Shown one piece after another: positions 25,295-31,732 of a stretch of 48,453 bases of DNA (the stretch's first letter is position 1; each line of letters starts with the position of its first letter). The DNA is taken from NCBI GenBank assembly GCA_011048995.1, contig DSCS01000071.1, positions 1 through 48,453 of the forward strand. The letters are read 5' to 3'. The translations under genes were made by a program, and so were the position numbers. The notes under the pieces are model-generated. The model saw only the letters and a list, made by a program, of their open reading frames with translations, was not told the origin of the DNA and ran no database searches. This DNA comes from Bacillota bacterium. Lineage in GTDB: Bacteria > Macinerneyibacteriota > Macinerneyibacteria > Macinerneyibacteriales > DSCS01.

Positions 25295-25320
25295 AGAGAG
25301 ACCTTGTGAAAGGAGGCGTC

Positions 25321-26673
25321 ATGACATTTTTGATTTTAGCCGGTGGAAGCGGAAAGCGTCTTTTCCCGTTAAGCCGGGAGACATTCCCGAAACAGTTTTT
25401 GCCTTTGTTTAACGGACGCTCTTTGTTGGAAGAGACTCTTTCCCGGGCATGCGGAAAGCGTTGTCTGATCGTCGGAAGTTCCGAAAGCGCCCATCTTTTG
25501 AAAAATGCATCGGAAAAGGCAGCGGCTGAGGTTTTAGCGGAGCCCTTCGGGCGGAACACCGCTCCGGCTATTTTGTTCGGCTTGACATGTGTGGATGACG
25601 AAGAGATCGTCGCTGTGATGCCGGCCGACCATTATATCCAGGACAGGCCGTTGTTTCAAGAACGCTTGCAAGAGGCGGAAAAGCTGGCCGGAGACGGGTA
25701 TATTGTCACCTTGGGGATATGTCCTGATGCTCCGGAAACCGGGTATGGGTATATTAAAAAAGGGAGGCCGGCCGGGACAGGTTATGTTGTTGATTCTTTT
25801 ACGGAAAAACCCGATGAAGAAAAAGCCCGCTCCTATTTGGATTCCGGGGACTATCTGTGGAATTCCGGGATGTTCATCTTTAAAAAAAAGACTCTGTTAG
25901 GGGAGTTCAAGAACCTTTCTCCACAGCTTTATGACTTTTATGAGGCATTGAGTTGTTCCCGGGAGGAGTCATTTCAGGCGATCTATCAAAAAGCTCCTGA
26001 TATCTCTATTGATTATGCCGTTATGGAAAAGACAAAAAAAGCTGTCGTTATCCCGGGTGATTTCGGCTGGAGCGATATCGGGAGCTGGCGAGCGCTCAAG
26101 GCCCTGTTTGACCCCGGCGAAGGCAATGTTTCACTGAATGCCGAGCTTTTCCCTTTGGAAAGTCAGAATAATATTGTTTCAGCTCCGGGGAAAACAGTTG
26201 GCCTTTTGGGTGTTGACAATCTGGTTGTCGCCGACACAAAAGATTTCCTTTTTATCGGTTCTTTAGAGCGTTCACAGGAAGTCAAAGAGATCGTCTCCAT
26301 CGTCGGGAAGAAATATCCTGAAACAGTGCGATCCCATAAGGACGAAATACGCCCATGGGGGGAATTTACGACTCTGGAAGAAGGGGACGGCTTCAAGGTG
26401 AAAAAAATTACCGTATCCTCCGGAGAAAAGCTTTCACTTCAGTATCATCATCATCGAGAAGAGAATTGGATCATTGTTCAGGGGGACGCTCTGATGACCC
26501 TTGGGGAACGCACTTTTTCCGTAAAGGCGGGAGATACAGTCGCTATCCCCCGGGGGGAAACCCATACCATTGAAGGGGTCTCTCTGACCATTTTTATTGA
26601 AGTGCAGCGAGGAGACTATTTGGGTGAAGATGACATCGTTCGGTTGGATGACCGCTACGGGCGAATGAAATGA
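25321..26673 (+). CDS. manC: Mannose-1-phosphate guanylyltransferase / mannose-6-phosphate isomerase, type II
   Basis: 450 aa from ATG25321 (AAAGGAGG 6 nt upstream). The nucleotidyltransferase part carries FLILAGGSGKRLFPLSRETFPKQF-type sequence with the GGSGxRLxPxSR-PKQF signature, VMPADHYI, GYGYIKKG, FTEKP and DYAVMEKT. The C-terminal cupin (about 345-450) has the isomerase metal residues in LQYHHHREENWIIVQG and GETHTIEG. It makes GDP-mannose from mannose-1-P, and by family may also supply mannose-6-P. No glycan biosynthesis genes lie adjacent. Confidence 0.93.
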   Translation: MTFLILAGGSGKRLFPLSRETFPKQFLPLFNGRSLLEETLSRACGKRCLIVGSSESAHLLKNASEKAAAEVLAEPFGRNTAPAILFGLTCVDDEEIVAVMPADHYIQDRPLFQERLQEAEKLAGDGYIVTLGICPDAPETGYGYIKKGRPAGTGYVVDSFTEKPDEEKARSYLDSGDYLWNSGMFIFKKKTLLGEFKNLSPQLYDFYEALSCSREESFQAIYQKAPDISIDYAVMEKTKKAVVIPGDFGWSDIGSWRALKALFDPGEGNVSLNAELFPLESQNNIVSAPGKTVGLLGVDNLVVADTKDFLFIGSLERSQEVKEIVSIVGKKYPETVRSHKDEIRPWGEFTTLEEGDGFKVKKITVSSGEKLSLQYHHHREENWIIVQGDALMTLGERTFSVKAGDTVAIPRGETHTIEGVSLTIFIEVQRGDYLGEDDIVRLDDRYGRMK

Positions 26674-26678
26674 CTGAA

Positions 26679-26718
26679 TATTGGACATGTGTAGTTTTAA
26701 TAGACACAGTGTCCAATA
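26679..26718. repeat. Long inverted repeat between manC and hsp20: manC terminator or upstream activator site
   Basis: TATTGGACA (26679-26687) and TGTCCAATA (26710-26718) are perfect complements; inside them TGTGT (26688-26692) pairs with ACACA (26704-26708) leaving one bulged G. Half-site centres are 31 bp apart, about three helical turns. It starts 5 nt after the manC stop and lies ~100-140 bp upstream of the sigma-54 promoter, where an enhancer-binding protein would act. A T-run follows only after ~10 nt. Confidence 0.6.
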
Positions 26719-26820
26719 ATTAAACATTTTTTTAGAGGCTGTGTTTTGACGCCGCATTTTCAAGTTCTGTAACTGGCTATATTTCTTCCCGTTAGCTTTG
26801 CATGGTATTAAAAAGCATTT

Positions 26821-26836
26821 TGGCACGTCTCTTGCT
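26821..26836 (+). promoter_or_regulatory. Sigma-54 (RpoN) promoter of the hsp20 pair
   Basis: TGGCACGTCTCTTGCT: the -24 GG (26822-26823) and -12 GC (26834-26835) are exactly 10 nt apart, with TGGCAC and TTGCT matching the sigma-54 consensus. It lies 30 nt before the hsp20 ATG. No competing sigma-70 promoter with good spacing is seen here. Confidence 0.75.
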
Positions 26837-26865
26837 TTATACAAAATAAAAAAAGGAGGTGTGTT

Positions 26866-27339
26866 ATGAAACCTGTGAAACGAAATGAGGAGAACAGACT
26901 TGATGTCGTAAGGCGTAATGATCCGTTCCGCAGCTTTTTTGATGAATTTGAGTCTATGTTCGAGGACTTTTTCAGACCCGGCTTTCTTAGTGAATACAAA
27001 GACTATCCTGTCGCTATTCATGCTGATGTCGGAGAAGACGATGAGAAATATATGATCAAGGCCGCTTTGCCGGGAATGAAAGAAGATGACATCAAAGTCT
27101 CTGTCGAGGACGGCGTCCTCGTTCTCCGGGCGGAGCGTCGGGAAGAGGAAAAAGAAGAAAAGAAAGGTTATTTCCGCCGGGAGATAGGGTACGGCAAGTA
27201 TGAGCGGCGGTTCAGGCTGCCGGATAATGTCAATCTTGAAAAAGTGGATGCCCGCTACAAAAACGGTATTCTGGATATCGATCTGCCGAAAAAGGAAAAG
27301 GGGTTGTCCCGGAAAGAAATCAAGGTCAAGGGGGCCTGA
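26866..27339 (+). CDS. Small heat-shock protein, Hsp20 family (first of two)
   Basis: 157 aa. N-terminal arm NDPFRSFFDEFESMFEDFF, then the alpha-crystallin domain (about 45-150): IHADVGEDDEKYMIKAALPGMKEDDIKVSVEDGVL split across strands, RRFRLPDNVN and the dimer/oligomer strand ending in KNGILDIDLPKKE. ATP-independent holdase that binds unfolding proteins. Strong AAAGGAGGTGTGTT before ATG. Expression is probably driven by the sigma-54 promoter 30 nt upstream. Confidence 0.95.
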   Translation: MKPVKRNEENRLDVVRRNDPFRSFFDEFESMFEDFFRPGFLSEYKDYPVAIHADVGEDDEKYMIKAALPGMKEDDIKVSVEDGVLVLRAERREEEKEEKKGYFRREIGYGKYERRFRLPDNVNLEKVDARYKNGILDIDLPKKEKGLSRKEIKVKGA

Positions 27340-27368: not shown

Positions 27369-27725
27369 ATGACACTTATTACTTTGGGGCGTTGCTGCCC
27401 TCCGGATATACAGGGATTCGAAACACATGTCAGGCGCGATGCTGATGATTTTGTTATTCAGGCGGCCTTGCCCGGTGTTGAGAAGGAGAAGATACAGGTG
27501 ACAATGGAAGAAAGAAGACTCCATATCAAAGCGTTCCGCGATGATTCGTTTTCGCGGGGGCGGTCTCTGCGAAGCGAGTTGCCCCGAGGTGAGCTGGAGA
27601 AAAATTATTCGCTGCCTGAAAATATTGATGCTGAAGCGGTTACCTCTTCATATGACAATGGCATATTGACAGTTCGTCTGCCGTTAAAACAACAACCCGG
27701 CCCCCGGGCCGTTCCTATAGATTAG
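27369..27725 (+). CDS. Small heat-shock protein, Hsp20 family (second, short)
   Basis: 118 aa. Almost only an alpha-crystallin domain: ETHVRRDADDFVIQAALPGVEKEKIQ, MEERRLHIKA, KNYSLPENIDAEAV and YDNGILTVRLPLKQ. The N-terminal arm is very short and holds two adjacent Cys (GRCCPP), and the IxI-type C-terminal tail is reduced. It may act as a partner of the longer Hsp20 29 nt upstream rather than form large oligomers by itself. AAGGAGGAAGA precedes ATG. Confidence 0.92.
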   Translation: MTLITLGRCCPPDIQGFETHVRRDADDFVIQAALPGVEKEKIQVTMEERRLHIKAFRDDSFSRGRSLRSELPRGELEKNYSLPENIDAEAVTSSYDNGILTVRLPLKQQPGPRAVPID

Positions 27726-27742
27726 CGAAATCCCTTCGCTTA

Positions 27743-27763
27743 GGGGCGGGTTCTCCCCGCCCC
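27743..27763 (+). terminator. Hairpin after the second hsp20 gene
   Basis: GGGGCGGG (27743-27750) pairs with CCCGCCCC (27756-27763), 5-nt loop. No T-run follows. A smaller GCGAA/TTCGC stem (27725-27739) precedes it. Confidence 0.5.
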
Positions 27764-27784
27764 GACATTGTCAACTCTTTTGAC

Positions 27785-27811
27785 TTGACACACGTCTTTC
27801 ATCATGATAAT
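27785..27811 (+). promoter_or_regulatory. Promoter of the ylxM-ffh operon
   Basis: TTGACA (27785-27790) and GATAAT (27806-27811) with a short 15-nt spacer; 9 nt further is the ATG at 27821. No Shine-Dalgarno (CTCCTTTTC) precedes that ATG. Confidence 0.45.
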
Positions 27812-29994: not shown

Positions 29995-30497
29995 ATTATT
30001 ATCGTATCGGCCGCATTATGAAGCCTCATGGGATACGGGGAGCCTTTAAAGTCTTCGTGGAGACCGATTTTCCTCAGCGGTTTAAAGATGACAAAGTCAT
30101 CACTCTGGAACATAAGGGGGAAAGAAAAGATTTCCCCTTAGAGGATGTCAAATTCCTCAACGGCGGGGTGGTTGTTTTGAAAGTCACCGGAATCGAATCT
30201 CCTGAAGAGGCGACGCTGTATAAAAATGCTTCCCTGGTCATTCCCGAAGAAGAGCTCTTTCCTTTGGACGAGGATATGTTCTATGAGCATGAACTGATCG
30301 GATGCCGGGTCTTAGACGGCGAAAAAGAGATCGGTTCTTTAAAAGAGATTTTTTTCAATGGAGGGACCGATGTCTATGTCGTGGAATCTTCTGAGGGAAA
30401 AGAGATCATGATCCCGGCTGTAAAGGCTTTTATAAAAGAGATCAATACAGATGAGCGGACGATATGTGTAGAGCTTATTGAAGGGATGATGGAATGA
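29991..30497 (+). CDS. rimM: Ribosome maturation factor RimM
   Basis: 168 aa. N-terminal RimM domain ([17 protein letters not shown], then [15 protein letters not shown]) and C-terminal PRC-barrel ([34 protein letters not shown]). Helps assemble the 30S head around S19. ATGA overlaps on both sides tie it to khpA and trmD. Confidence 0.96.
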
Positions 30498-31732
30498 CCG
30501 TCGATGTGCTGACCTTATTTCCCGAGATGTTTGCCTCTCCGTTTGAAGAGAGTATTTTGAAAAGAGCTCGGGAAAAAGGGCTATTGTCACTGAATATCCA
30601 TAATATCAGGAATTACACATCAGACAAACATCAGGTAGCCGATGATTATCCCTACGGAGGCGGGGCCGGCATGGTGATGAAAGCCGAGCCGGTGGTCAAC
30701 GCCGTGGAAGCGCTTCAAAGCGGTCATTACCGGGTTTTAATGACTCCCCGGGGGACACCTTTGACACAAAGTGTCGTACGGCGCCTTTCCCGGCAGAAGA
30801 AGTTGATGTTGGTGTGCGGGCGATACGAAGGGGTCGATGAGAGAGTGTCGGAGCTTGTTATCGATGAGGAAATCTCTGTCGGTGATTTTGTCCTCTCCGG
30901 AGGAGAGTTGCCGGCGATGATGCTTATCGATGCTGTAACTCGCCTGATTCCCGGGGTCCTGGGCAATGAAGCCTCCGTCTCGGAAGAGAGTTTCAGCGGT
31001 GATCTGCTTGAATATCCCCAATATACCCGTCCCGCCGAATTTCGGGGGATGAAAGTCCCTGATGTCCTTTTGTCAGGTAATCATAAGGAGATCGAAGCCT
31101 GGAGAAAAGAGAGGGCCTTGGATAAAACACGTAAAATACGACCCGATCTTGCGGCACAGGTGTCTGTTTACGGAGCTCTTGTCCATTACCCGGTAACGGA
31201 CAAGAGAGGTGACGTGATCAGCACATCCATCACACCTATCGATCTTCATGATATGTCCAGGACATTTCACACATACGGCTTAAAAAAGCTGTTTATCGTA
31301 TCGCCGCATCCGGCTCAAAATGAGGCGGTAAGACAGATGCTTGATTTCTGGCAGGAGGGAGCCGGAAAAGCCTATAATTCTAACAGGGCAGAGGCCCTTT
31401 CGCTGACACGGCTTACAGAAAACATTGATGAAGTTGTCAGCCGCATAGCCCGTGAGGAGGGACAGACGCCTGAACTTTGGGTGACAAGTGCCCGGCTTCA
31501 GGAGCCGGTAACAGGCTACAGCGAAGCCCGGGGTCGTCTGGCGGGTTTAAAAGAGAAACCTCTTTTAATTCTGTTTGGAACCGGTTGGGGGTTAGCCCAA
31601 ACCATTGTAGAGAAAGCGGATATCAGATTGGCGCCTGTGAAAGGCGTCGGTCATGATTTTAACCATTTGTCGGTACGCAGTGCCGCAGCTGTCATATTGG
31701 ACAGATTATTTGGAAACGGGAGGTCGTTATGA
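30494..31732 (+). CDS. trmD: TrmD tRNA m1G37 methyltransferase fused to a second SPOUT-type RNA methyltransferase domain
   Basis: 412 aa against about 230-260 for a normal TrmD. Residues 1-~235 are complete Trm[25 protein letters not shown], the knot motif [11 protein letters not shown], the catalytic Asp in [12 protein letters not shown] and [10 protein letters not shown]. After ~RKIRPDL comes a second domain (about 240-412): [47 protein letters not shown], and [23 protein letters not shown], which resembles the stand-alone RNA methyltransferase (PF09936 type) that follows trmD in Thermotoga and others. TrmD makes m1G37 next to the anticodon and prevents frameshifts; the target of the second domain is unknown. 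Confidence 0.95.

Follow-up and report, generated by a model that had tools for sequence, protein, structure and literature searches.

Among the closest systems described so far is that of E. coli, in which sigma-32 transcribes ibpAB and sigma-54 additionally transcribes ibpB (PMC4370416), a precedent named in the first-pass annotation of the present locus. A 2025 survey found a chaperone cluster that includes COG0071 (IbpA) to be enriched among the sigma-54 targets predicted for Planctomycetota and Bacteroidota (PMC12316311). In Borrelia burgdorferi, sigma-54 drives a sigma-70-family stress factor within the Rrp2-RpoN-RpoS cascade (PMC3037356, PMC1976401), and the enhancer-binding protein (EBP) motifs of Desulfovibrio vulgaris include TGT/ACA half-sites 9, 11 or 12 bp apart (PMC4641369). 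The literature searched gave no clear instance of a sigma-54 case of small heat-shock protein (sHSP) control in Stigmatella (SP21) or Geobacter.

We analyzed a window of 48,453 nt (the whole stretch of DNA under study) from a 1.884 Mb draft MAG of 75 contigs, about 26 kb of which is N (hereafter G000). It carries two consecutive hsp20 genes, and its nearest named relative is a MAG of Candidatus Mcinerneyibacteriota (L058), which has the same hsp20-1/hsp20-2 gene order and an Hsp20 81% identical. As for E. coli ibpB, the locus points to an sHSP gene transcribed by sigma-54, with EBP dependence implied; in E. coli, however, the sigma-54 promoter is additional to that of sigma-32, whereas the hsp20 pair of G000 as a whole has it as its first and only well-supported promoter. 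The IbpA/sHSP family is under predicted sigma-54 control here, as in the predicted regulons of Bacteroidota and Planctomycetota. Their cluster includes GroEL, DnaK and GrpE, whereas in the present genome, from another phylum, CIRCE stands at groES and hrcA, with sigma-54 elements at the sHSPs only. A sigma-54-controlled sHSP is already a known kind of system, of which the G000 operon is a well-supported further case.

A sigma-54 element ahead of the hsp20 operon

The features of the operon and its surroundings are as follows.

25306 to 26673, plus strand: upstream neighbour, manC-like mannose-1-phosphate guanylyltransferase/isomerase (PF00483, PF01050); context only
26821 to 26836, plus strand: sigma-54 -24/-12 element TGGCACGTCTCTTGCT, TGGCAC-GTCTC-TTGCT; consensus match, kept in the congeneric genome G001 and before two hsp20 copies in G002
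26847, plus strand: predicted transcription start (+1), from standard sigma-54 geometry with the C of the -12 GC at -12
26853 to 26860, plus strand: Shine-Dalgarno sequence AAGGAGGT of hsp20-1, identical in G001
26866 to 27339, plus strand: hsp20-1, 157 aa, Hsp20/alpha-crystallin (PF00011, 93.5 bits), 81% identity to G001
27369 to 27725, plus strand: hsp20-2, 118 aa, second Hsp20 (PF00011, 70.2 bits)
27743 to 27763, plus strand: hairpin 3' of hsp20-2, 8-bp GC-rich stem without a T run (27726-27775: -20.6 kcal/mol, z -2.95)

The first-pass annotation had described TGGCAC-N5-TTGCT with exact GG-N10-GC spacing ahead of an Hsp20 pair, and the sequence bears out both parts. GG lies at 26822-26823 and GC at 26834-26835, 29 nt separate the element from the ATG of hsp20-1 at 26866, and both proteins score above the PF00011 alpha-crystallin cut-off of 20.8 bits. 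TGGCACGTCTCTTGCT contains each of the defining parts of a sigma-54-dependent promoter (-24 TGGCAC, -12 TTGCW and GG-N10-GC). The two genes, with a gap of 29 nt between them, are presumed to be cotranscribed, and the strong hairpin at 27743-27763 is a possible 3' end of the operon. Further downstream in the window, a sigma-70-like TTGACT-17-CATGAT (27780-27808) precedes a ylxM-ffh operon and contrasts with the hsp20 promoter. A TrmD-like ORF of 412 aa (30494-31732), above the usual TrmD length, appears, when read by eye, to be fused to a second RNA-methyltransferase domain.

Within the window, TGGCAC-N5-TTGCT has a single exact match, which is TGGCACGTCTCTTGCT. Across the G000 genome, the pattern TGGC-N7-TTGCW matched 17 times, with TGGCAC in one of the 17, the hsp20 element, which was also the sole match to the strict form TGGCACR-N4-TTGCW. 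With a looser consensus, two 12/12 matches were found in 3.77 million positions, the hsp20 element and an intragenic one. Ten first-order Markov genomes gave 0 to 1 strict matches each (mean 0.2, one strand). Since about 0.2 strict matches per strand are obtained in such genomes, the single strict match alone is weak evidence, and it is the position of the element and its conservation in three genomes that carry the case.

Conservation of the element and other possible hsp20 promoters

We compared G000 with G001, which is congeneric, and with G002, from another family of the same order. G001 has TGGCACGGTCTTTGCT before hsp20, at the same distance to the ATG as in G000, and in G002 TGGCACAATCATTGCT precedes hsp20 and TGGCATGCAATATGCT precedes a further hsp20 located on a different contig. 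The spacers of these elements vary and both boxes are constant. Consensus words do arise by chance, as the intragenic 12/12 match in G000 illustrates. That the hsp20 element is likewise a sigma-54-like word without function is nevertheless hardly credible: it stands at the same position, with altered spacers, in three genomes from two families, it belongs to a conserved regulon, and such elements are enriched before hsp20 in other phyla.

The sigma-54 promoter might instead be real and auxiliary, with a sigma-70-type promoter or read-through from manC supplying basal or heat-induced hsp20 transcripts, as the E. coli ibpAB/ibpB precedent would allow (PMC4370416). manC, which has the same orientation and lacks a canonical terminator, lies 192 nt upstream of hsp20-1, and a 9/12 sigma-70-like match, TTGGCA-16-CAAAAT, overlaps the element. 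However, when G000 and G001 are compared ahead of the Shine-Dalgarno region, the strongest conserved block is the sigma-54 element, with 47% identity further upstream, and no conserved sigma-70 promoter was seen at hsp20 in this comparison. In addition, both hsp20 genes of G002 have divergent upstream genes, and therefore need promoters of their own and leave no bypass of the element by read-through from a co-directional neighbour; both still carry the element. We regard an auxiliary role as possible, if rather doubtful. The earlier statement that no sigma-70 alternative is apparent holds roughly, sigma-70-like matches in the region being at about background frequency (4 found vs 2.3 expected); it overlooked the 9/12 match lying across the element itself. 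It is plausible, from these comparisons, that the sigma-54 element is the only hsp20 promoter.

Control of hsp20 by HrcA/CIRCE or by an RpoH-type sigma factor, as for other chaperone genes, was also considered, as HrcA is encoded in G000 and an RpoS-like sigma factor is present. CIRCE was found at groES (C3:5761, 0 mismatches) and at hrcA (C3:41252, one mismatch); at hsp20, none was found within four mismatches, which sets the operon outside the HrcA/CIRCE regulon. Moreover, the alternative sigma factor is itself preceded by a sigma-54 promoter, and hsp20 has no other conserved promoter block. Control of this type is thus very improbable.

A repeated upstream box as a probable enhancer

Upstream of the promoter, three copies of an inverted repeat were detected.

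26671 to 26687, plus strand: candidate EBP box a, TGACTGAATATTGGACA, 7/8 match to TGTC-N9-GACA, overlapping the manC stop codon
26690 to 26706, plus strand: candidate EBP box b, TGTAGTTTTAATAGACA, 7/8 match to TGTC-N9-GACA
26710 to 26726, plus strand: candidate EBP box c, TGTCCAATAATTAAACA, 7/8 match to TGTC-N9-GACA

Counting matches of at least 7/8, the boxes precede the TGG by 150, 131 and 111 nt in G000 and by 151, 132 and 112 nt in G001, and the pitch of 19-20 nt is kept between the two genomes. This array is the only triple and the only intergenic TGTC-N9-GACA array in the 1.88 Mb of G000, and a triple array occurred in 0 of 10 simulated genomes. G002 has one clear box only, TGTATAATTATTACACA, of the form TGT-N11-ACA, at -133, where no gene ends upstream; the array, as far as can be read from these genomes, is therefore poorly conserved beyond the genus. 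A reading of the repeats as GACA-N2/3-TGTC palindromes was tried and rejected: it gave no other intergenic site, and both congeneric genomes are better described by TGTC-N9-GACA at a 19-20 nt pitch. The TGT-N11-ACA architecture upstream of a sigma-54 promoter resembles that of EBP motifs in D. vulgaris (PMC4641369). The main text of that paper gives no heat-shock target, unlike the putative hsp20 target here, whose cognate EBP can be named only among candidates.

These repeats could also be the manC terminator, with the EBP binding elsewhere or acting from solution. They set in at the stop codon of manC, and their RNA forms a good hairpin directly after manC in both congeneric genomes (-16.5 kcal/mol and z -3.0 in G000; z -4.5 in G001). 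Nevertheless, the feature that is conserved is the pitch of the three boxes, at equal distances from the -24 element; the array sits at a typical enhancer distance with no T run directly after it, and the box of the same type in G002 does not follow a gene end. A pure terminator is in our view unlikely. The triple array is the probable enhancer of the hsp20 promoter; since its RNA also folds immediately after manC, it may in addition act in part as a terminator.

RpoN, its activators and the sigma-54 regulon

The first-pass annotation had left rpoN to be looked for in the genome. The gene is intact in G000 (TIGR02395, 314 bits vs an equivalog cut-off of 277; PF04552, E 1.3e-46), together with seven EBPs that strongly match PF00158, the sigma-54-activation domain. 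The genome-wide search for the same element, also proposed there, delineated a regulon of hsp20 and the following members.

C23:23105-23860: 251-aa RpoS-like sigma factor, site before the gene, best family TIGR02394
C24: ORP-like Fe-S/ATPase operon, adjoining its own EBP
C20: pilA
C7: pilX-like gene
C41: EBP adjoining cas6 and cas1

The regulon site, TTTTGGCACR-N5-TGCTTWAT, was derived from fifteen sites in three genomes, which when aligned are nearly invariant except in the spacer and which precede the same kinds of gene across the three genomes. G000, G001 and G002 all have the sigma-factor and pilX sites, and G000 and G001 share the pilA and ORP sites.

The C23 protein belongs to the sigma-70 family (regions 2 and 4); at 177.7 bits vs the TIGR02394 cut-off of 378.7 it is RpoS-like only, below the RpoS equivalog level. 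Its gene has a sigma-54 promoter in all three genomes (G000:C23:23059-23860, L220 and L269; L218 in G001; L268 in G002). As in the Borrelia cascade, sigma-54 would here drive a sigma-70-family stress factor (PMC3037356, PMC1976401). The sigma-factor promoter has its own conserved upstream palindrome, ATGAAC-N3-RTTCAT, in G000 and G002, and a search for a box common to the hsp20 and sigma-factor promoters found none. Because their upstream boxes differ, the two promoters probably respond to different EBPs, unlike the Borrelia cascade. With another palindrome at the sigma-factor promoter, sigma-54 is probably a hub with several activators in this organism and not the centre of one stress regulon.

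Outside the pilus loci, three sets of EBPs are kept by orthology in G000, G001 and G002: the C14 kinase/EBP pair, the PspF-like C6 EBP and the orphan regulator C23:2505-3842. We infer that these are the best candidate hsp20 activators, among which a comparison of EBP recognition helices picked out no single one. The PspF-like EBP, which has no receiver domain, follows two M42-type peptidase genes, a family name assigned by eye, and does so in all three genomes (G000:C6:16986-20017; L253 in G001; L249 in G002). At G000:C41:417-3737 (L176), an RtcR-like EBP (NF038308, 269 bits vs a cut-off of 650) with its own sigma-54-like promoter lies directly 5' of cas6 and a type I-B-like cas1, a possible sigma-54 link to CRISPR. 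The ORP-like iron-sulfur/ATPase operon (G000:C24:6684-11081, L157) has an adjacent PAS-type EBP, and its sigma-54 site is preceded by long inverted repeats; this arrangement is also found in G001.

Sigma-54 elements before hsp20 genes in other phyla

Beyond the phylum, 48 hsp20 loci were searched over 420 kb on both strands, and five of the six consensus matches lay just upstream of hsp20 on the same strand, at four loci including one of a rumen Treponema. Consensus sigma-54 elements stand directly before hsp20 genes or clusters in L035, L048, L052 and L075, all from other phyla, with two elements 61 nt apart in L052. In two other phyla, we also compared the positions of Hsp20 domains with those of strict sites, and obtained at least 7 and at least 4 co-locations, against expectations of 0.016 and 0.011 (P about 1e-16 and 1e-9); one genome, G019, is shared between the co-location genomes and the four hsp20 loci. 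Counting strict sites only, at least 13 distinct genomes outside the phylum have one before hsp20. RpoN control of an sHSP had been called rare at the outset, a view contradicted by these counts and by COG0071 among the survey targets (PMC12316311). The predicted sigma-54 wiring of sHSPs recurs across phyla far above chance and is not rare.

Proposed mechanism and significance

Taken together, these results make it very probable that 26821-26836 functions as a sigma-54 (RpoN) promoter for the operon of two hsp20 genes and that it is opened by an array-bound EBP. The original proposal that such a promoter drives the hsp20 pair, and hence makes it dependent on an EBP, is supported by the rpoN gene, the conservation of the element, the regulon and the enhancer-like upstream array, all read from sequence. 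An ATP-driven activator, and not the common heat-shock machinery, probably turns on the hsp20 pair.

RNA polymerase with sigma-54 would wait at -24/-12 in a closed complex. An AAA+ EBP, bound as a hexamer to the TGTC-N9-GACA array about 110-150 bp upstream, would loop to the promoter and, going by established sigma-54 biochemistry, remodel the closed complex with ATP into an open one, with transcription predicted to begin near 26847. EBP binding to the array, the identity of the EBP and its signal are the putative parts of this scheme. The sHSPs would form an on-demand branch apart from HrcA/CIRCE.

As a tentative extension, several little-studied phyla might share an EBP-driven sigma-54 heat-shock branch dedicated to sHSPs. 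Damage to proteins would be sensed there by an EBP not yet characterised, which would then activate sHSP operons whose promoters are otherwise silent. This branch would run parallel to HrcA/CIRCE and, via another EBP, to the sigma-54-driven RpoS-like factor; here the EBP would bind TGTC-N9-GACA arrays and could be the PspF-like one beside the M42 peptidases.

Because no transcription starts at a sigma-54 promoter before an AAA+ activator has spent ATP on it, an sHSP operon placed behind one would be a strict on-demand switch. Which EBP binds the array, and what that EBP senses, is the testable question raised by this locus. The recurrence of the arrangement across phyla, together with CIRCE at groES and hrcA in this genome, suggests that many bacteria place holdase chaperones under one sensor and the folding machinery under another.
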